Positions 10,555 through 45,607 of a stretch of DNA of 45,616 nt are shown piece after piece. Source of the DNA: a virus. The stretch spans positions 1 to 45,616 of IMG/VR virus record IMGVR_UViG_3300045284_000393; one strand, written 5' to 3'. The notes beneath the pieces are model-generated. The model was not told the DNA's origin, did no database searches, and saw nothing but the letters and a program-made list of their open reading frames with translations. The translations under genes were made by a program, and so were the position numbers. Within the stretch, counting starts at the first letter, position 1; each line of letters begins with the position of its first letter.

Positions 10555-13230
10555 TTACTTCACGACGAGCTCGACGCACGTTGTCGCGGTCGGGCAGACA
10601 AAGAACCGATTCTGCGCGGCACCGTTGACGAACAACTGGAACACCTGGCCGGCCGGCTGTTTCGTCTCCGTCGGCGTCGGCGCGACACACGCGCCAGTCG
10701 CCGCGTCCTCGATCGTCCCCATCGCACAGAGACACTGCCCGTTCACCAGTACGCGGCCCATCGGCACCGTCGTCTGAATCCCCATGATGTTCGGGCAGAT
10801 GTCGACGGGCGGCGCCACCGAGCCGACCGTGAACGCAAACGTCAGCAGCGAGCTCGCGATCTTCGCGTGCGCCAGGTCGCGGCGCCACGTCCGAACCTCG
10901 TGGGGACCGGTCGCGACGTTGTTCGTCACCGTCGTGCGGATGTCGGGCGTCGAGCCCGTGCCATCGCCTGGGCCCGCCAGTACGTCGGCGCCGCCGTCGA
11001 CACTGACGATCAGGACGTCGTCGGCCGCCATGTAATCACCGGTCAGGATCGCGTGCAGCGTGATGCCGCCGTCACGGATGACCGCCGGCTCGCGACTGTT
11101 CGGCGACGTCACCACGCCCTTCGGAGCCCCGAGCGTCGTCGTTGCGCCGGCGACCGCGAAGCCATTGATCAGGCCCTCGAACGGTACGACTTTGGTGTCG
11201 TCGAACGCCTCGCCGCGATAGGCCATCCCGTACTTTGCCCACGCCTGCGCCTCAGTGATGCCGGCTTCCGGCTGCGTGTAGGCGTCTGGGTACTGGTCTC
11301 CGGTCGCGTACGGCGCCGCGAGGCTGCCACGCTGCGCGGAGTGGAACAGCCGGAAATCCTGGCCCGCCGTGCCCTGGTTCGCGAACACCTTCAGCTGCGT
11401 GCCGCGCTGTCGAATCCATTCGCTGACGCCCTGCGACGGCTTCGCGTCGAGGACGAGATATTGGGGCGGGTTCGCGCCGTACCGTTTGTGCGTCACGCGC
11501 GTGTAGGTGATCGACAGCGGCAACTGCGTGTAATCGGCGTCGATGATGTTCTGCAGGACGACGTCGGTCATTGTCGTCAGATTGCCGCCGCCGCCGTGAA
11601 TGCCGTAATCGGTCCCGACGATCCGCCCCTTTTCGAGCGTGAGGGTAAACGAGTAGGCCGGCGAGACGTGGATCCCGAACGATCGCCCCTGCCCGACGAG
11701 CGTGAAGTCCGTCAGCCACGGCGAGGCCCCCTCGGACTGGGCCTGAAATAGTTGCCCGACGCCACTGTTCGCCCCGATCGCGCCCTTGTTCTGGAAGCGC
11801 GGCACGCCCCAGTACTCGAACGACGTCGACTCGTTCGCCGCCGCCACGTTCTTTTCGAACGCGATCGGGACCGCGACAAACCGGCTGAACGTCGTGTCGT
11901 GCTCGCCCCCGGCTTGCGACGGATACATGCCGGGCGCCTGCGTCTGATTGAACAGGTTGATCCCGATATGGTTATTCCACGCCTCGTTGCCCTCGAACCG
12001 GTTCATCACGCCGCGGAACCAGAAGCCGTTGCCAGTCCCGCCAGGGTTGTTCGCCGAGGCCGCGCCGGTGCCGGTGGCCACGGCTTCGGCGTTGAGGTCA
12101 TCTGTCGGGGCGCCCAGGTTGAAGATGGCGAAGTTGCGGAGGTACTGATTGCGGACTTCGTAGCCGTCTTCCGTCACGAACCCGGAGCCGTTGAAGCCGA
12201 CCGCGACGTTATCGGTGATCGGTTCGTCGTGCGTGCCGTGCTGTGAAAATCCCCACTTCCCGACGCCGGCGACGTAGGCGTTGCCCACGGTCGCCGAGCC
12301 GAAGCCGTACCCGTGGTGATGATGTTCCTCGTAGCGCCCAACCTGATTCGTACCGGGTTTGTTGTCGGCCTGCGAGTTGAGCGTGACGTTCTTCGTGCGG
12401 CCCAGCCCGTCAAATCGGACATAACGGGTCTGCCAGTGCGCATCCGCGCCGACGCTGGCGGTATGGCCCGGTGTGCCCTGCGGGTTCTCGGACTTGATGA
12501 CGACGTTCCGCGAGAGGTTCGCGACACGCCCTTGCAGGACGACCGCGCCGTCAGGGTCGAGGATCGCCTTATGGTCGAAGACGAGCGGCGTACTGAGGGT
12601 GACGGTGCGGCCGGCGATGGCGGCGACCGTGAGGCCCGGCTCGCGACGCGGGCGCGCGGCCGGCGATTGCTGCGCGGTGTCCGTCATCACGAGCTCGTCA
12701 CCCACGGCCCACCCCTGCGGGTCGAATGCGAGGCTGAGCGTCGTCGCGCCCTTCACGGCTTCAGCGGCGAGCGGGCCCCAGGTCGCCTTGCCCGCACCCA
12801 CCAGCGACCGCGTGCCGAAGTTCAGAAAGCCGTTCCCCCACTGGAACGGGTCGCGCGCGGTGTCGATCGGGACGTCGCGCACGATGAGCGTGACGCGGCG
12901 CGTCGCCGGAATCGGATCGGCCTCAGTGCCGCAGTCGAAGACGCCGCCTGGCAAGACGAAGAAATGCGTGAACCGGGCGACGGTGTCGCGCGACCGGTCG
13001 CACTTCAGCGTGCCGGCGACCTCGATGTAGTCGAACGTTGCGTCGGCCGGCAGCGTGACGGTTTGCCCCGCGCCGACAACCAACTTGTTCGGCAGGTCGA
13101 GGTACCGCGGCACGAAGTCGGTCCCGATGAGAATCCGGTCGGCTTGGACCGTGATCGTCATGCCGTGGACCGCGCCGAGCGGCCGCGTGAGACAGGTGAG
13201 CAGCAGCGCACACGCGAATAGTCGTCTCAT
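10555..13230 (-). CDS. exported G8-domain, right-handed beta-helix protein
   Basis: 891 residues from ATG 13230 with GAGG upstream; the open frame further 5' is arginine-rich shadow. Residues 1-20 form a Sec signal peptide (MRRLFACALLLTCLTRPLGA). Residues about 45-130 fit the G8 domain (VVGAGQTVTLPADATFDYIE, then GTLKC and LPGGVFDCG), the unit found in CEMIP/TMEM2-like and bacterial carbohydrate-active proteins. A long beta-helix follows (repeated N-x-x-x-G turns, EEHHHHGYGFG). The last 130 residues hold Cys pairs (CPN, CLC, GACVA). It probably binds or cleaves a surface polysaccharide. A signal peptide is unusual for a tailspike. Confidence 0.75.
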   Translation of the reverse strand: MRRLFACALLLTCLTRPLGAVHGMTITVQADRILIGTDFVPRYLDLPNKLVVGAGQTVTLPADATFDYIEVAGTLKCDRSRDTVARFTHFFVLPGGVFDCGTEADPIPATRRVTLIVRDVPIDTARDPFQWGNGFLNFGTRSLVGAGKATWGPLAAEAVKGATTLSLAFDPQGWAVGDELVMTDTAQQSPAARPRREPGLTVAAIAGRTVTLSTPLVFDHKAILDPDGAVVLQGRVANLSRNVVIKSENPQGTPGHTASVGADAHWQTRYVRFDGLGRTKNVTLNSQADNKPGTNQVGRYEEHHHHGYGFGSATVGNAYVAGVGKWGFSQHGTHDEPITDNVAVGFNGSGFVTEDGYEVRNQYLRNFAIFNLGAPTDDLNAEAVATGTGAASANNPGGTGNGFWFRGVMNRFEGNEAWNNHIGINLFNQTQAPGMYPSQAGGEHDTTFSRFVAVPIAFEKNVAAANESTSFEYWGVPRFQNKGAIGANSGVGQLFQAQSEGASPWLTDFTLVGQGRSFGIHVSPAYSFTLTLEKGRIVGTDYGIHGGGGNLTTMTDVVLQNIIDADYTQLPLSITYTRVTHKRYGANPPQYLVLDAKPSQGVSEWIRQRGTQLKVFANQGTAGQDFRLFHSAQRGSLAAPYATGDQYPDAYTQPEAGITEAQAWAKYGMAYRGEAFDDTKVVPFEGLINGFAVAGATTTLGAPKGVVTSPNSREPAVIRDGGITLHAILTGDYMAADDVLIVSVDGGADVLAGPGDGTGSTPDIRTTVTNNVATGPHEVRTWRRDLAHAKIASSLLTFAFTVGSVAPPVDICPNIMGIQTTVPMGRVLVNGQCLCAMGTIEDAATGACVAPTPTETKQPAGQVFQLFVNGAAQNRFFVCPTATTCVELVVK

Positions 13231-13238
13231 GGGTCCTC

Positions 13239-13427
13239 TTACGTCTTCGGGTGTGAATCGAGAAACGCCTGCCCGATCGCGTTGCCGTCGGTCACGTCGA
13301 GCTCGAGCTTCGCGAGCGCCTCTTCTTCGGTGACGACTCGGCCTTCGGCACGCAGCTGCGCCAACCACGCGAAGAGTTCGGGTATCGCGATTCGGCCGAT
13401 CAGCGCGGCCAGTAGTTCAGGGCTCAC
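13239..13427 (-). CDS. 62-residue helical protein
   Basis: GTG 13427 overlaps the stop of the lipoprotein gene (GTGA) and has GGAGG upstream. The peptide starts VSPELLAALIGRIAIPELFAWL and continues AEGRVVTEEEALAKLELDV, an amphipathic helical protein. It lies in the holin-like/lipoprotein group. Function unknown. Confidence 0.6.
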   Translation of the reverse strand: MSPELLAALIGRIAIPELFAWLAQLRAEGRVVTEEEALAKLELDVTDGNAIGQAFLDSHPKT

Positions 13428-13801
13428 TGCAGTCCTCCGATCAGACTGTCGACCGCCGCCATGGCGGCCACGATCGCGGGGTTCGTCACGCCGACGAGTC
13501 GAGCCTTCGCGACGGCCCAACCTTCTTTCGCTGACGCCTGCCAGCCCTGCGGCGTGGCCTTCAGGACCGAGCGCACGTCCATCAGTGTCTTCACGACGTC
13601 GTGTGCGGTGTTCGTCGGGATCGTGTTCGGCGCGCATTGCGGCGCCGGTCCGCAGTAGTCGATGACCGCGGCCTGGAGCTCATTGACGCGTATAACGACG
13701 GCGTCGGCCTTGATGGCGGCGCCGGCTTTCGGGGTGGCCGGGGTGACTTTCGCGCAGCTCGCCGAGAGACAGAGCGCGAGAACAAGCATCAGTCGTTTCA
13801 T
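13424..13801 (-). CDS. lipoprotein
   Basis: 125 residues. MKRLMLVLALCLSASCAKV is a lipoprotein signal with lipobox SASC (Cys16). The mature part is helical and Ala-rich (AIKADAVVIRVNELQAAVID, then a short Cys loop CGPAPQC). It sits in a group of exported small proteins just downstream of the holin-like gene, where outer spanins are often found, but it lacks the Pro-rich short form of a typical outer spanin. Confidence 0.65.
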   Translation of the reverse strand: MKRLMLVLALCLSASCAKVTPATPKAGAAIKADAVVIRVNELQAAVIDYCGPAPQCAPNTIPTNTAHDVVKTLMDVRSVLKATPQGWQASAKEGWAVAKARLVGVTNPAIVAAMAAVDSLIGGLQ

Positions 13802-13813
13802 ATGGGGGCTCCT

Positions 13814-14074
13814 TCAGGGCAGTCTCTTAACGACCTCTGCGACGGGCTCGGACGTCTTCTGTGCCTGCTCTAGCGTCTTGGGCTTCATGTCCGCCAGGGT
13901 CTGCGCCGAGGTCACCTGCGACCGGGTGAACAGTGTGAGCACGGCCTCGAGCGCCAGTAGCGACGCCACGAGTTGCGGCATGGTCAATTTCAGGCCAAAC
14001 GTCATCCCCGCCAGTGCCACCAGGCGCACGGCGTTGACGATCGCGACGGCCTCGGTGTTGAGCGGGTTGTTCAT
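13814..14074 (-). CDS. holin-like membrane protein
   Basis: 86 residues from ATG 14074, overlapping the stop of the gene before it (ATGA). Two hydrophobic stretches are visible: IVNAVRLVALAGMTFGL and PQLVASLLALEAVLTLF, then FTRSQVTSAQTLADM and a charged tail. The layout of two helices followed by SQVT resembles small phage membrane proteins often listed as holins. A hole-forming role is likely but not shown. Confidence 0.6.
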   Translation of the reverse strand: MNNPLNTEAVAIVNAVRLVALAGMTFGLKLTMPQLVASLLALEAVLTLFTRSQVTSAQTLADMKPKTLEQAQKTSEPVAEVVKRLP

Positions 14075-39923: not shown

Positions 39924-40147
39924 CCTCTAGACCTTTCGGCAATCTTCCGCGCTTCATCCAACGCGGCTTTTATGACGGCCGCGAGTCGAGGGCTGACGAT
40001 CGCGACCTTGTCGTCGGGCCAGTCTTCGATCACGACAATCGGCAAGCCCATGAACTCGTCAGAGCTGACGACCGAAGGCTCGAACGTTGAGTCGACTGGG
40101 GGTTGGTCGTTTCGAGGGCGGCGTGATGCCGAAGCCGACGCCGACAT
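39920..40147 (-). CDS. hypothetical protein after terminase
   Basis: 75 residues from ATG 40147 with GGGGAG eight bases upstream. A polar start (MSASASASRRPRNDQPP) is followed by a folded part GLPIVVIEDWPDDKVAIVS and a basic helix (AAVIKAALDEARKIAERSR). It overlaps the end of the terminase gene by 89 bases in another frame. No family recognised. Confidence 0.6.
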   Translation of the reverse strand: MSASASASRRPRNDQPPVDSTFEPSVVSSDEFMGLPIVVIEDWPDDKVAIVSPRLAAVIKAALDEARKIAERSRG

Positions 40148-41690
40148 CGTTATAGCTCCCCTCGGCCGGCCGCTCGGCCTTCGGGAACGGCGGCCGCGAC
40201 GACAAGAACATGCTCAGGTCGTCGTACGCATGGTCTTCCTGCTTCTTGTCCGCGGCGCCGTGCAGGATGTCGTCGAGGTCGTTCGGGTCGGCGACGAGCT
40301 CCGGGAGCGTGCGTATGAGGTTCGGACACGCGGTCGTGCATTGCCAGTTCGGAAACCCGTCGACGTGCCGGTCGAGGCCGGCAATCATGCGCTGCACGCG
40401 CGCCTTGCGGCTGCCGGCACCCTTCGGCGCGAGTTGGATGTTGATCCCCGTCGGAATGCCGAGCTCCTCCTCGTAGACCTCGAACACGGATTTCGCGAGC
40501 CCGTGCTCCATCCTCGAGCCGAAGGGCAGGTCGCCGACGATGTAGGGCACGTCCCACTGCGACTGACGGCGGTCGGCCTGGTCCTGCCATTCGTCCTCGA
40601 CCCACGTGCGGATGCGCTGCGCCTGCTTCACGTCGCGCACCTTGACCGCGTAGAACTCCTTGAAGGTGACGATGTGCCCATCGGGCATCGCCGCGTGGAA
40701 GTGCGCCGACCACGGGTTGCCGTAGCCGTAGTCGACCGACCCAAACACGCGTACGCTCGAGGGCGGCCGCCAGAACTGATCCGGAATCACGTGCCACGGC
40801 AGCACGGTGCCGATCTCGATACCCGCCTCGACGAGCTCGAGGTCCTTCGACGTCACGTACTTCGACGCGCGCCACATGCCGAACATCTGCCCCTCGAAGG
40901 CGTCCCAGTCGCCGTCTTCGAGCATCCGGCGCGTCATCTCGTTGGGGTTCGCACGAATACGCGCGACGTAGCCGGGGTCCGCCAGCATGCCCGGGACGTT
41001 GTCCGTCATCCGCGCCTGAATGAATTGCCGGCGCAGGGGCTCGTCGTCGGGCAGGTCGGGGTTCGCGATCGGCCGCCAGATTTCCCCGAACGCCGGCATC
41101 GGCCGGTCGCCCAGGTCGACAGGGTCCGGCGTGATGTAGCGCCGCTTCAGCCAGGGGCCGCCGATGTTGCCCGGGTTCGCGCTCAGCCGGATCTTGCACG
41201 GATACCCGCGCGCCGACCGCACGCGCGAGAAGAGATACAAGACCATCGAGATCGTAAATTGCTCGGCCTGGTCGATGAGCAGCAGAATCCACTCGGCCGA
41301 CTGATAGCGGTAGACGTCGTTCTCGTTGTCGCAGTAGCAGAACCAGAGGATTGACCCGTTGAAGAACACGGCCCGCTTCTTCGAGTCGCTGTATTTGGCG
41401 ATCGACCGCGGCACGTAGCGCAGAAAGCGCAGGATGAGCGACGCCTCGAGCTCGCCGCGCGTCCGGCGGAAGATGGCGACCTCGCAGCCCGGATACATCA
41501 AGCATGTCGCGATGGCCTCATGAATGAGGTACTCGGACTTGCCGCCGAACGCGGCGCCGCCGTAGAGGAGCTCGTCGGCGTCAGAGGCATGCGCCTCGGC
41601 CTGCTTCGGGTTGGGATCGCAGGGTGTACCGGTTCGAGCATCGCGATACCCGATGATGAACCGCTCGTCGGTGGCAACAGCAGCACCCAT
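40059..41690 (-). CDS. terL: terminase large subunit
   Basis: 543 residues, ATG 41690 with AGGAG upstream. ATPase: Walker A GGAAFGGKS at 44-52; Walker B ILLLIDQAEQF at 135-145 (Asp140, Gln141); coupling motif SANPGNIGG. Nuclease: SVDYGYGNP with the first Asp, then VGDLPFGS and HAYDDLSMFL with later acidic residues. It packages DNA into the head with the portal. In most relatives the residue after the Walker B Asp is Glu; here it is Gln, with Glu143 two residues on. Small terminase candidate lies upstream at 41959. Confidence 0.92.
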   Translation of the reverse strand: MGAAVATDERFIIGYRDARTGTPCDPNPKQAEAHASDADELLYGGAAFGGKSEYLIHEAIATCLMYPGCEVAIFRRTRGELEASLILRFLRYVPRSIAKYSDSKKRAVFFNGSILWFCYCDNENDVYRYQSAEWILLLIDQAEQFTISMVLYLFSRVRSARGYPCKIRLSANPGNIGGPWLKRRYITPDPVDLGDRPMPAFGEIWRPIANPDLPDDEPLRRQFIQARMTDNVPGMLADPGYVARIRANPNEMTRRMLEDGDWDAFEGQMFGMWRASKYVTSKDLELVEAGIEIGTVLPWHVIPDQFWRPPSSVRVFGSVDYGYGNPWSAHFHAAMPDGHIVTFKEFYAVKVRDVKQAQRIRTWVEDEWQDQADRRQSQWDVPYIVGDLPFGSRMEHGLAKSVFEVYEEELGIPTGINIQLAPKGAGSRKARVQRMIAGLDRHVDGFPNWQCTTACPNLIRTLPELVADPNDLDDILHGAADKKQEDHAYDDLSMFLSSRPPFPKAERPAEGSYNDVGVGFGITPPSKRPTPSRLNVRAFGRQL

Positions 41691-42727: not shown

Positions 42728-43162
42728 TCAGCCATGAGTTTGCTCGGACTTGTCCTCGTCGTCGCGCTGTTCTGCGTCGTCTACTGGGCGGTCCACCGAC
42801 TGATGGCCGCGGCCGGCATGTCGCCGATGATTGTCGCGATCGTCGACGTGATCCTGGTCCTGGCGCTCGCGGTCTGGCTGCTGCAGACCACCGGCGCGCT
42901 CAACGTCGGGCCCCGCATCTCGATTCGGTAGCAGGGCCTCGAGCTCTCCCCAGTCGACAAAGTAACCTTTCGCGCCCTCGAGCTCCTCAGCCTCGTAACG
43001 CGACAGGTCTCGAATCTGATTGGCGAGTTCGTCGAGCGGTCGCGACAAGCGCTTGATGTCGTTGACCAGCCCGCGCACCTCGAGCGGCCCTAATCCGCCG
43101 TCGACGTAACTCGCCGTCGTGATGAGCGCAAGAACGTCGAAGCGGTCGACTAGGTCGGGCAT
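42728..43162 (-). CDS. hypothetical protein, C-terminus antisense to membrane gene
   Basis: 144 residues from ATG 43162 with GGAG eight bases upstream. The first 80 residues look real: RFDVLALITTASYVDGGLGP, then LVNDIKRLSRPLDELANQIR and GYFVDWGELEALLPN. The rest is rich in Asp, Arg, Gln and His, the expected mirror of the membrane gene on the other strand. The gene may truly end in this tail, or the present stop may reflect a lost earlier one. Family unknown. Confidence 0.55.
   Translation of the reverse strand: MPDLVDRFDVLALITTASYVDGGLGPLEVRGLVNDIKRLSRPLDELANQIRDLSRYEAEELEGAKGYFVDWGELEALLPNRDAGPDVERAGGLQQPDRERQDQDHVDDRDNHRRHAGRGHQSVDRPVDDAEQRDDEDKSEQTHG
42734..42931 (+). CDS. two-helix membrane protein on the opposite strand
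   Basis: 65 residues from ATG 42734, with GGAGG six bases upstream. Two membrane segments are evident: LLGLVLVVALFCVVYWAV and MIVAIVDVILVLALAVWLL. It is the only plus-strand gene outside the lysogeny module and is fully covered, in antisense, by the frame at 42728-43162. Short two-helix proteins like this occur in many phages, often listed as holins or unknown. Confidence 0.65.
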   Translation: MSLLGLVLVVALFCVVYWAVHRLMAAAGMSPMIVAIVDVILVLALAVWLLQTTGALNVGPRISIR

Positions 43163-43167
43163 CAGGG

Positions 43168-43437
43168 TTACTCCTTCGGCGCGGGCCCCGTCGAGACGTC
43201 CAGCCGCACCTCGTATTTTTCCATCACCTCGACGCCGGGCGCTGGATTCTGCCCGCAGACCATCCCGACGGGCGACGCGTTCGGCCGGCGCACGACCTCG
43301 ACCCGGAACCCCTTCTCTGCCAGCAGCACGCGCGCCGGATATTCGTCCATCCCAACCAGCCGCGGGACTTTCACCATGACATGATCGCCCGCGCCGAGCA
43401 CCGCCAACACCGCGACCAACACCAGAATCCGCCCCAT
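43168..43437 (-). CDS. exported single-PASTA-domain protein
   Basis: 89 residues from ATG 43437 with AAGGGG upstream. MGRILVLVAVLAVLGAGD is a signal peptide or anchor. The mature part is one PASTA domain: VKVPRLVGMDEYPARVLL, AEKGFRVEVV and VCGQNPAPGVEV, then a closing strand (EVRLDVSTG). PASTA domains bind muropeptides or beta-lactams in cell-wall kinases and penicillin-binding proteins. A lone exported copy in a phage may target peptidoglycan or wall signalling. Confidence 0.75.
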   Translation of the reverse strand: MGRILVLVAVLAVLGAGDHVMVKVPRLVGMDEYPARVLLAEKGFRVEVVRRPNASPVGMVCGQNPAPGVEVMEKYEVRLDVSTGPAPKE

Positions 43438-43497
43438 CACGCAGCCCCTTTCAACGAACGCGAGCGCCGGCCCAATGCCGACGCCCGCGCCTGGATC

Positions 43498-43743
43498 TTA
43501 GCCCTGCCACGGCATCAGGTAGCAGTCGCCGCCATCGAAACAGTAACACTCACCGCACATGCAGCCGCCGTTGTTGTTGCAGATGCACTCGATTGTGCCC
43601 TCCTCGACGCAATACCAGCCGTTGCCGCCCATGTTGATGTAGCACACATACTCGCCGCACGTCGGCTGCTGCGCGGCCGGCTGCGCCGCGTGCAGGGTGA
43701 ACAAGAACAGACCGACGATCGCCGCTCGAATCAGATTCCTCAT
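43498..43743 (-). CDS. exported ten-cysteine peptide
   Basis: 81 residues from ATG 43743, with GGAGG eight bases upstream. Residues 1-26 form a signal peptide (LIRAAIVGLFLFTLHAAQP). The mature 55 residues hold ten Cys in a dense pattern: TCGEYVCYI, WYC, ECICNNNGGCMCGECYCF and DCYL, with Gly and acidic residues. This suits several disulphide bonds or metal binding. A thioredoxin-like gene lies 29 bases upstream and a PASTA protein downstream, so these may act together outside the membrane. Confidence 0.75.
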   Translation of the reverse strand: MRNLIRAAIVGLFLFTLHAAQPAAQQPTCGEYVCYINMGGNGWYCVEEGTIECICNNNGGCMCGECYCFDGGDCYLMPWQG

Positions 43744-43771
43744 TGTTCTGACCTCCAACCTCACTGACCGT

Positions 43772-44236
43772 TTAGTTGAGCGTCGCGATCAGGTCACGTT
43801 GACCATCAGGCGACAAGGCACCGACCCACGATTTAACGACACGGCCCGCCGCGTCCACGACCACGATCGTCGGCGTGCCAGAAAGTTTCGCCCATGCCCC
43901 ACGCGCCACAGTTGCCCGCGGGACCGTCAGGCCGTTGTCGGTCAGATAGCGGTCGAGCACGTCGGGGGCGTCGTTGCTGATGGCGACCACGCGCCGACCC
44001 TTCGCTAGCTCCCGATAGAAGCCCATACTTTCCGTGCAGAAATGGCAGGTGCTCCGCACGAACAGCACGGCCGTGCGCCTGGCCCCCGCGTACGGCAGAC
44101 CCGCGATAGCTGGCGCCTGCTCGCCGGGCGTGTAGGCCGACGGCGGTGTCCGCGTCGGCGTGCGCATCATCGCGATGCCGTAGACCACGGCCACCAACAG
44201 CAACACGTTCACGACTCGATCAAATGTGACTCTCAC
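43772..44236 (-). CDS. membrane-anchored thioredoxin-like (TlpA/redoxin) protein
   Basis: 154 residues from GTG 44236, preferred since AAAGGAC precedes it; an ATG 11 codons earlier overlaps the RusA stop. Residues 8-24 form a membrane anchor (VVNVLLLVAVVYGIAMM). The redoxin domain follows: AVLFVRSTCHFC with the active-site Cys64 and Cys67, FYRELAKGRRVVAI, then GTPTIVVVD with the cis-proline Pro122. The domain should face the periplasm and form, break or shuffle disulphides. Its neighbour, the ten-Cys exported peptide, is an obvious possible substrate. Confidence 0.8.
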   Translation of the reverse strand: MRVTFDRVVNVLLLVAVVYGIAMMRTPTRTPPSAYTPGEQAPAIAGLPYAGARRTAVLFVRSTCHFCTESMGFYRELAKGRRVVAISNDAPDVLDRYLTDNGLTVPRATVARGAWAKLSGTPTIVVVDAAGRVVKSWVGALSPDGQRDLIATLN

Positions 44237-44255: not shown

Positions 44256-44807
44256 TCAAAAAGGTCCATCGGTCAAAACCGTGCTCTGTCCGGTGTTCTG
44301 AATGCCGGCCTTCACGTAAGCCGGCCCAGGCTCCTCCACCGTCACGAACACACCGGTCGGCGCCCCGATGCCGGCGTAGCGCTTGCGCACCAGGAGGTCG
44401 ATGACTTGCGAGTCGTCGAGCCACAGCACGCCCTTGAGCGCGTCCTCGGTCGAGCGCACGAGCTTCGAGAGGTCCGGCCGTTTGGTCGGATAGATTTGCG
44501 ACTTCGGCCGCGACTTCGGCGGCGGCAGGTAGAACACGAGCGAGAGCGCGATCGCCTCGGTGAACATCTCACCGGTTGCGACTTCGCCGGCGGCGTCGGC
44601 GACGAGTTGCCGCCACTGCTTTAGATTCGGGTTGTCGCTGGTCAGGATGGGACGCGTCCAGCCTTTCGGCGTGAACGCGCGCATCGAGCCCTGCGGTTGC
44701 GGCACGCCTACGACTCGGAAGGTGACGACTCGGCGACGAGTTCCTGTCTGAGCGCTGCGAGGTTCGCCTTCGCGGCCTGCTCCTTCGGTGCTGAACAAAT
44801 CAGACAT
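44256..44807 (-). CDS. rusA: RusA-family Holliday junction resolvase
   Basis: 183 residues from ATG 44807 with GGAG upstream. FRVVGVPQPQGSMRAFTPKG, then LSLVFYLPPP, KRPDLSKLVRSTEDAL and WLDDSQVIDL fit RusA, with catalytic Asp112, Asp122 and Asp131/132. It cuts Holliday junctions made by RecT-mediated recombination or replication so that DNA can be packaged. Its start overlaps the end of the GroES-like gene by 100 bases. Confidence 0.9.
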   Translation of the reverse strand: MSDLFSTEGAGREGEPRSAQTGTRRRVVTFRVVGVPQPQGSMRAFTPKGWTRPILTSDNPNLKQWRQLVADAAGEVATGEMFTEAIALSLVFYLPPPKSRPKSQIYPTKRPDLSKLVRSTEDALKGVLWLDDSQVIDLLVRKRYAGIGAPTGVFVTVEEPGPAYVKAGIQNTGQSTVLTDGPF

Positions 44808-45607
44808 GGTTCTCCCTCGAGGTGCTCGCTGTCGTCGTGGGTGATGAGTGTGAATTTCGCCGCGGGCACGCGGCCCTGGACTTCGTCCTCGAGGAGCATG
44901 AGGCGCTCGAGCTCGTCGAGAATGACCCACGTGCCGGCGTATTTCTGGTAGAGGACCAGGTCGCCGACGGCGACGGTCATCGGCTTTCGCGCGACCGCGA
45001 TGCGGTCCCCTTCTCGCGTCGGGACCGGACCGTCGACGAGTTCACCAGGTCCGACCTTCTCGACGATGGCGCGGTTCTGCGTGTGCCGGCCGGTGTCGGG
45101 CAGGACGATGCCGCCTTGCGTGAGGTCGAGGTCGGGGAGCGGGCGCACGATGAGGCGCGCGCCGATCAGTTCGAGGTGGTCGTAGATTTTGCCCATCGGT
45201 CTGTTCTCCGGTTGCGGTTGTGACTCGAGCGCTTCGCACCGTGCGACGCACTCGACGATTTCTTGAGCGACCAGGCGGGCGGCCTTCAGCATGGCAGCCC
45301 GCGTCTCTGGGATGAGCCGGCCCTTTGGCATCTGACAGACCGACACGCGCAGCTGCTTGAGTAGCGCGCCGGCCTCGTCGCGCGAGAGTGGCAGCGGTTC
45401 AGGGCTGACCGCGTGCATCCGTGTCGGCGGCGTGATGAGGTTCGTGTTCGCTGCCACGACCCCGATCGCCTCGTCGAAGTCTCGTTGCTCGTATCGAATC
45501 CTCAGCCGATTGAGTCGGCGCCGTAGTTCGTCATTCAGGTCTGCGTAGCTCTCAAACCGTTCACCCCGTGCGACTTCACGCACAACCTTCGAGATGAGTC
45601 GCTGCAC
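44708..45607 (-). CDS. GroES-like co-chaperonin fused to a small phage domain
   Basis: 299 residues from GTG 45607 without an internal stop. Residues 1 to about 75 (GERFESYADLNDELRRRLNR, then DFDEAIGVVAANTN) match a short phage protein normally found alone. From residue 138 (ATG 45196, with GGAG nine bases upstream) a chaperonin-10 domain follows: GARLIVRPLPDLDLTQGGIV, then GDRIAVARKPMTVAVGDLVL and YAGTWVILDELERLML. A tail with CLIC and a charged helix ends it. No GroEL-like partner is encoded, so it would use that of the host, like T4 gp31. The 162-residue GroES part might also be made alone. Confidence 0.75.
   Translation of the reverse strand: MQRLISKVVREVARGERFESYADLNDELRRRLNRLRIRYEQRDFDEAIGVVAANTNLITPPTRMHAVSPEPLPLSRDEAGALLKQLRVSVCQMPKGRLIPETRAAMLKAARLVAQEIVECVARCEALESQPQPENRPMGKIYDHLELIGARLIVRPLPDLDLTQGGIVLPDTGRHTQNRAIVEKVGPGELVDGPVPTREGDRIAVARKPMTVAVGDLVLYQKYAGTWVILDELERLMLLEDEVQGRVPAAKFTLITHDDSEHLEGEPCLICSAPKEQAAKANLAALRQELVAESSPSES

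Follow-up and report, generated by a model that had tools for sequence, protein, structure and literature searches.

Gene pair and its surroundings

The window analyzed here comprises the 45,616 bases of an IMG/VR virus from soil (record IMGVR_UViG_3300045284_000393). It encodes the terminase large subunit (TerL), a P22-like portal, a major head protein, RecT, an exonuclease, an XRE-type regulator and an integrase; the integrase and the regulator, together with the tailed-phage genes, identify a temperate tailed phage. A scan with TerL revealed no sister phage in IMG/VR, and the INPHARED matches were all below 60% identity (the best about 30%). The order of genes on the minus strand is Cpn10-domain protein, RusA, redoxin, cysteine-rich peptide, exported PASTA protein, small ORFs, DUF5681 protein (a weak match, at the small-terminase position), TerL and portal (Table 1). 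In the first of these phage-encoded proteins (44708-45607, minus strand) the Cpn10/GroES domain follows an N-terminal extension of ~145 residues. Elsewhere on the same strand (10555-13368), a 937-aa protein has an internal signal-peptide-like start, a G8 domain and a CEMIP beta-helix, and is possibly further exported or tail-spike cargo.

Table 1. Coordinates of the gene pair, its neighbors and the related cassettes of other phages
Feature	Position	Strand	Evidence or remark
Membrane-anchored thioredoxin-fold redoxin, 154 aa	43772..44236	-	GTG 44236; Pfam Redoxin E 7.9e-5; AF2/Foldseek; alignment A2
Predicted redoxin TM helix, residues 12-35 of the 165-aa reading	44165..44236	-	AF2 helix, hydrophobic stretch, family conservation
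CHFC active-site motif, residues 75-78 (165-aa numbering)	44036..44047	-	sequence
Expected cis-proline P133 in SGTPT	43871..43873	-	T132-P133 invariant in 23-sequence alignment
Exported Cys-rich peptide precursor, 81 aa	43498..43743	-	ATG at 43743, stop at 43498; ten Cys after signal peptide
Shine-Dalgarno GGAGGT of peptide gene	43751..43756	-	sequence; perfect site
Predicted signal peptide MRNLIRAAIVGLFLFTLHA	43687..43743	-	heuristic call; cleavage maybe a few residues later
RusA-type Holliday junction resolvase	44256..44807	-	PF05866 E 4e-16, phrog_140 E 2e-32; directly upstream of redoxin
Exported single-PASTA-domain protein	43168..43440	-	PF03793 E 1.6e-8, hydrophobic N-terminus; directly downstream of Cys peptide
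Terminase large subunit	40059..41690	-	phrog_979 E 1e-35; downstream, strand shared with pair
L152 cassette: redoxin / 250-aa protein / exported Cys-rich protein	L152:3187-5771	opposite to head genes	
Same three-gene cassette in a further phage	L155:387-2611, L156:4040-6264, end in L158:2-436	opposite to head genes	

The first-pass annotation had placed a gene pair with a signal peptide, ten cysteines, a CHFC motif and a cis-proline at 43498-44236, and both ORFs were confirmed there, on the minus strand. Its choice of 44236 as the redoxin end is better supported than the alternative start ATG 44269, which would give 165 aa, because a Shine-Dalgarno sequence, AAAGGA (44250-44245), precedes the GTG. 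The ATG of the peptide lies 28 nt beyond the redoxin stop. Depending on the cleavage site chosen, the mature peptide has its ten cysteines within 55-62 residues, partly in C-x-C clusters such as CMCGECYC. No relatives of the peptide were found in Pfam, PHROGs, NCBIfam, PDB, INPHARED phages, plasmids or IMG/VR, and it thus represents a singleton. The AF2 model of the peptide alone (pLDDT 63) is all-beta in the mature part and uninterpretable.

The position of the pair deserves attention, since in lambdoid phages Q and the lysis genes sit between the RusA and terminase genes. The same location here would fit a pair that belongs to a phage lysis or envelope-remodelling cassette, as would the adjoining exported PASTA protein and a holin-like 65-aa ORF with two TM segments at 42734-42931 (plus strand, opposite to its neighbors; no family match). 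Yet we recognized none of the lambdoid lysis genes (endolysin, holin, spanin) at 42.4-44.3 kb and rejected the two genes as recognized lysis genes. Nothing ties the PASTA protein to them either. Two ORFs at 13424-14065 (minus strand), one of 125 aa and lipoprotein-like, the other of 83 aa and hydrophobic, form instead a possible spanin/holin-like pair distant from the RusA-terminase slot. Moreover, a role in lysis leaves unexplained that the related cassettes described below are chromosomal or lie among head genes of other phages. Taken together, we consider a lysis or envelope-remodelling cassette decidedly improbable.

Active site and predicted fold of the redoxin

The two cysteines of the CHFC motif (C75 and C78) as well as T132 and P133 are invariant in the 23-sequence family alignment (A2). 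With 22.9 bits, the window redoxin falls below the gathering score of Pfam Redoxin (PF08534; 26.6 bits), which the redoxin of a related phage, L152, exceeds (29.7 bits); in NCBIfam the window redoxin matched MauD weakly. The AF2 model, built from five sequences (the window, two phage relatives and two chromosomal relatives), shows a TM helix followed by a thioredoxin fold, with a mean pLDDT of 78.7. Foldseek matched this model to DsbE, CcmG, ResA, StoA and SdbA (5um7) in PDB, with E-values down to 4e-8. Against the viral structure library nothing close was found (best E 1.6e-4, TM-score at most 0.52), and viral contigs, phages and plasmids contained no close homologues of the sequence. The family alignment is too diverse for a pattern scan; a scan for the DNA pattern CxFCxES..FY returned just two unrelated chance matches.

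Linkage to exported cysteine-rich proteins in chromosomes and phages

When bacterial genome contigs were scanned with the redoxin alone, two acidobacterial loci emerged. In both of them a ~258-aa protein comes next after the redoxin, and after that an exported protein of 438-467 aa with 23-30 cysteines. A first profile, built from these loci, detected the family in 16/396 genomes sampled across Acidobacteriota, whereas the wider profile A2 detected it in 40/162 genomes of one class and 14/193 of another, two counts that rest on differing E cut-offs. This survey covered Acidobacteriota only; it does not imply that the family is limited to the phylum, and the host of the phage is therefore something we infer. 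The window redoxin is 22-31% identical to the other rows of the A2 alignment. It matches the family signature, namely a TM helix, STC[HR][FY]C-x-[ED]-S...FY, GTPT and an exported cysteine-rich neighbor. Most members have C-[HR]-[FY]-C as their active center; the commonest form is CHFC (25/76), and the third motif residue is aromatic in 69 of 76.

Linkage was analyzed in the flanks of 78 chromosomal loci. Because these were picked by the redoxin and never by the neighbor, the test is not circular. A partner was defined as an ORF that starts like a signal peptide and whose mature part has at least six cysteines and at least 5% Cys, the signal-peptide rule and the ORF starts both being heuristic. 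In 27/78 loci the start of such an ORF is no more than 250 nt downstream of the redoxin, and in 6 loci the ORF lies downstream past one ~250-aa gene; in further loci it is directly upstream, or upstream past one ~600-aa gene. By these criteria an exported cysteine-rich ORF is near the redoxin in 54/78 loci, or in 59/78 if sub-threshold homologues of known partners are added, and about a quarter of the family loci have no partner by the criteria used. The density is 0.45 such ORFs per kb near the redoxin vs 0.003 per kb far from it (1 ORF in 356 kb of flanks more than 2.7 kb away). As a control we took, within one of the classes surveyed, 30 redoxins of the ordinary PF08534 type. None of them (0/30) has an exported cysteine-rich ORF directly downstream (Fisher p 4e-5), and only 3/30 have any exported cysteine-rich ORF within 1.5 kb, compared with 37/78 family loci; since the loci are mutually related, the p values of these control comparisons (4e-5, 3e-4) serve as a guide only.

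The linkage exceeds chance. The redoxin could in principle be a host-derived enzyme for general envelope repair that happens to adjoin a spurious or unrelated small ORF, and the lack of any homologue of the peptide agrees with such an origin. Nevertheless, the peptide gene has a perfect Shine-Dalgarno site, a signal peptide and ten cysteines, the linkage is strong across the family, and it recurs in phages. On the linkage statistics we rejected mere chance neighbors, an explanation to which we assign a very small probability.

Several other genes occur around the chromosomal redoxins. Acidobacterial VWA-domain proteins recur near the redoxin, in L036, L041, L042, L044 (TIGR03436 confirmed), L047, L113, L123 and L133, and VWA-like ORFs in L048 and L049. 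Exported proteins of ~600-740 aa lie upstream of the redoxin in L037, L040, L045, L134, L127, L138, L141, L142, L143, L149 and L151; the two tested had no Pfam match, and in most of these loci a cysteine-rich ORF stands just before. No electron-transfer partner (DsbB, VKOR, DsbD/CcdA) was seen among the recurrent neighbors of the family loci.

Comparison of the partners by BLAST gave about 40 groups without mutual matches at 1e-3, and the window peptide matched none of them at this threshold. The linkage is therefore not that of one inherited operon sequence. Mature cysteines come in even numbers in 50 of the 55 partners; counted by group the figure is 36/40 (p 9e-8), and with the groups of exactly six cysteines excluded it is 30/35 (p 1e-5). 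As fully paired disulfides give even numbers, these counts favor paired disulfides, and they support, at the level of sequence, the use of partner cysteines in disulfides and not as loose thiols. The larger partners share a conserved 190-aa C-terminal domain with DxNGNG-type motifs, which hints that the larger clients may be surface proteins. That the enzyme stays constant while its neighbors vary suggests a part in an arms race or in particular niches.

The cysteine counts also bear on the possibility that the exported peptide binds a metal such as copper or zinc, with the redoxin keeping its cysteines reduced for loading. TlpA serves copper chaperones in this way, most fold neighbors of the redoxin (ResA, CcmG) are reductases, MauD is among the weak family matches, and C-x-C clusters such as that of the peptide suit metal binding. 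The even numbers of cysteines in 50 of 55 partners, drawn from some 40 unrelated families, point instead to paired disulfides. In addition, the family lacks the CxPC signature of TlpA/ResA, having mostly an aromatic third residue, and no metal-transport gene recurs next door. We thus regard metal loading as quite unlikely.

Related cassettes are not confined to chromosomes. A viral scan with a redoxin sub-profile revealed L152 (IMGVR_UViG_3300025941_000099), a phage contig whose TerL, portal and head genes share one strand, with the cassette inserted on the other, between head genes. Scanning with the conserved end of the L152 partner led to a further unrelated phage, represented by L155, L156 and L158 from separate metagenomes. 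The cassettes of these phages consist of the redoxin, a protein of ~210-250 aa and an exported cysteine-rich protein. Two other phage contigs (L154:1903-3507 and L157:8939-10570) carry a large exported cysteine-containing partner with the DxNGNG end and have no family redoxin in the sequenced part. With the window included, at least three unrelated phages carry a redoxin together with an exported cysteine-rich protein. A moron, or lysogenic cargo gene, is an insertion with its own promoter and terminator that the phage does not need for growth. In this regard, the L152 and L155 cassettes run opposite to the head genes; the window pair shares the strand of the late genes, and a search for a promoter gave none, so that its expression in a lysogen is unsupported there.

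In the redoxin tree the window sequence groups with L103, near L099, while L152 groups with L041, L114, L117 and L120, and L155 with L115. The three phage redoxins thus occupy three places, and, although many branches are weak, the starred ones force at least two separate changes. More than one capture of the family by phages is therefore likely, as judged from this tree. The redoxin nearest to that of the window both by path and by identity (37%) is the chromosomal L099; the gene after it encodes an 88-aa precursor, likewise with ten cysteines in its mature part.

A failure of the two genes to co-occur elsewhere had been set beforehand as the condition that would refute their pairing. The pairing survived this test, as redoxins of the family adjoin exported cysteine-rich proteins both in chromosomes of Acidobacteriota and in two further phages unrelated to that of the window. 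The suggestion of the first-pass annotation that an enzyme adjoins its likely client gains support from this co-occurrence. The roles it named, namely a change of envelope redox, a toxin or bacteriocin-like peptide and protection against other phages, are all candidates on these data. Its view of the arrangement as an unusual one in a single phage did not hold: the window pair appears to be a compact form of a module present in Acidobacteriota chromosomes, and a precedent exists in the SPbeta sublancin/BdbB system (PMC6391423, PMC10729301).

Proposed role and comparison with known systems

We propose that the redoxin and the peptide are probably a maturation pair carried as phage cargo, with the redoxin as an oxidoreductase (oxidase or isomerase) devoted to its exported disulfide-rich partner. 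The temperate phage most likely infects an acidobacterium. The small peptide would be exported by the Sec machinery, and in the periplasm the membrane-anchored redoxin would interact with it through the CHFC center; its most likely activity is that of a thiol oxidase or isomerase, assisting the ten cysteines in forming five disulfides. Once folded, the peptide would act outside the cytoplasm, either by changing the cell surface or upon secretion, perhaps as an exclusion factor or in the manner of a bacteriocin, and might in this way benefit the lysogen. We prefer an oxidase or isomerase over a reductase because of the even cysteine counts and the absence of a CxPC motif; SdbA, a disulfide-making enzyme among the fold matches, agrees with this. 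Most characterized ResA/CcmG-type proteins, however, are reductases and not oxidases, which counts against the oxidase reading. The lack of a recurrent electron-transfer neighbor, the singleton status of the peptide and the family loci lacking a partner likewise weigh against the proposal.

A narrower form of this proposal holds that the peptide is a toxin or bacteriocin killing relatives of the host, with the redoxin as folding helper only. Hypervariable partners beside a constant enzyme recall bacteriocins, and SPbeta provides a precedent (PMC6391423). On the other hand, neither an immunity gene nor a dedicated exporter was recognized, and the 190-aa end of the larger partners looks more like that of a surface or adhesion protein. 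We consider the restriction to a bacteriocin rather unlikely.

Returning to the maturation pair, a broader hypothesis can be offered tentatively, at somewhat less than even odds: a previously undescribed redoxin family of Acidobacteriota may act as the general folding partner of ~40 hypervariable client families, and phages may repeatedly capture the module as a portable cassette that changes the surface of the lysogen or arms it against rivals. On these data, carriage of a kit that makes disulfide-rich secreted proteins seems to be a recurrent trait of phages. A literature search, in which few subscription journals were covered, found no description of the redoxin/cysteine-rich linkage. Little is known of the proteins secreted by Acidobacteriota, which abound in soil, or of their phages. 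The redoxin gene offers a handle on a large hidden set of small cysteine-rich secreted proteins missed by sequence search, and the family loci are candidate enzyme-client pairs for producing multi-disulfide peptides. Repeated capture by unrelated phages would point to a benefit strong enough for selection on phage genomes.

Among known systems, the redoxin resembles TlpA, ResA, CcmG and StoA in its thioredoxin fold, CxxC motif and cis-proline (Foldseek E about 1e-7 to ResA/CcmG/DsbE) and in the predicted N-terminal membrane anchor, which is kept in the family. It differs from them in that CHFC has neither the preceding Trp nor the Pro of the WCxPC-like reductase motif, in the conserved E-S after the motif, in the Pfam score below gathering and in the lack of adjoining cytochrome c genes. 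DsbC and DsbG share with the redoxin an aromatic residue at the third motif position (C-x-Y-C) and a cis-proline preceded by Thr, but they are soluble dimers with a dimerization domain that the redoxin lacks. SdbA of Streptococcus gordonii, one of the fold matches (5um7), makes disulfides in secreted proteins (PMC5112981); in contrast to the role proposed for the redoxin, it serves a Gram-positive host as a general oxidase and is not tied to a single client.

The closest parallel in logic, if not in descent, is the sublancin 168 operon (sunA-sunT-bdbA-sunS-bdbB) of the Bacillus prophage SPbeta, in which BdbB forms the sublancin disulfides (PMC6391423; PMC10729301). In that operon prophage-borne thiol-disulfide oxidoreductases adjoin a small exported disulfide peptide, and a corresponding arrangement, with a putative oxidoreductase and a putative disulfide peptide, is present in the window. 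The glycocin ABC transporter/protease and glycosyltransferase are absent from the neighborhood of the pair (RusA, Cpn10, PASTA, small ORFs and terminase), and in the absence of SunT and SunS we rejected its assignment as a glycocin cluster. Sublancin has a leader peptide exported by the transporter SunT, glycosylation by SunS, two disulfides and a Gram-positive host. In contrast, the window peptide has a Sec-type signal peptide and ten cysteines, no transporter or glycosyltransferase was recognized, and its sequence is unrelated. A prophage oxidoreductase beside a disulfide peptide was already known; the present family departs from SPbeta in the enzyme, the export route, the inferred host phylum and the diversity of clients.
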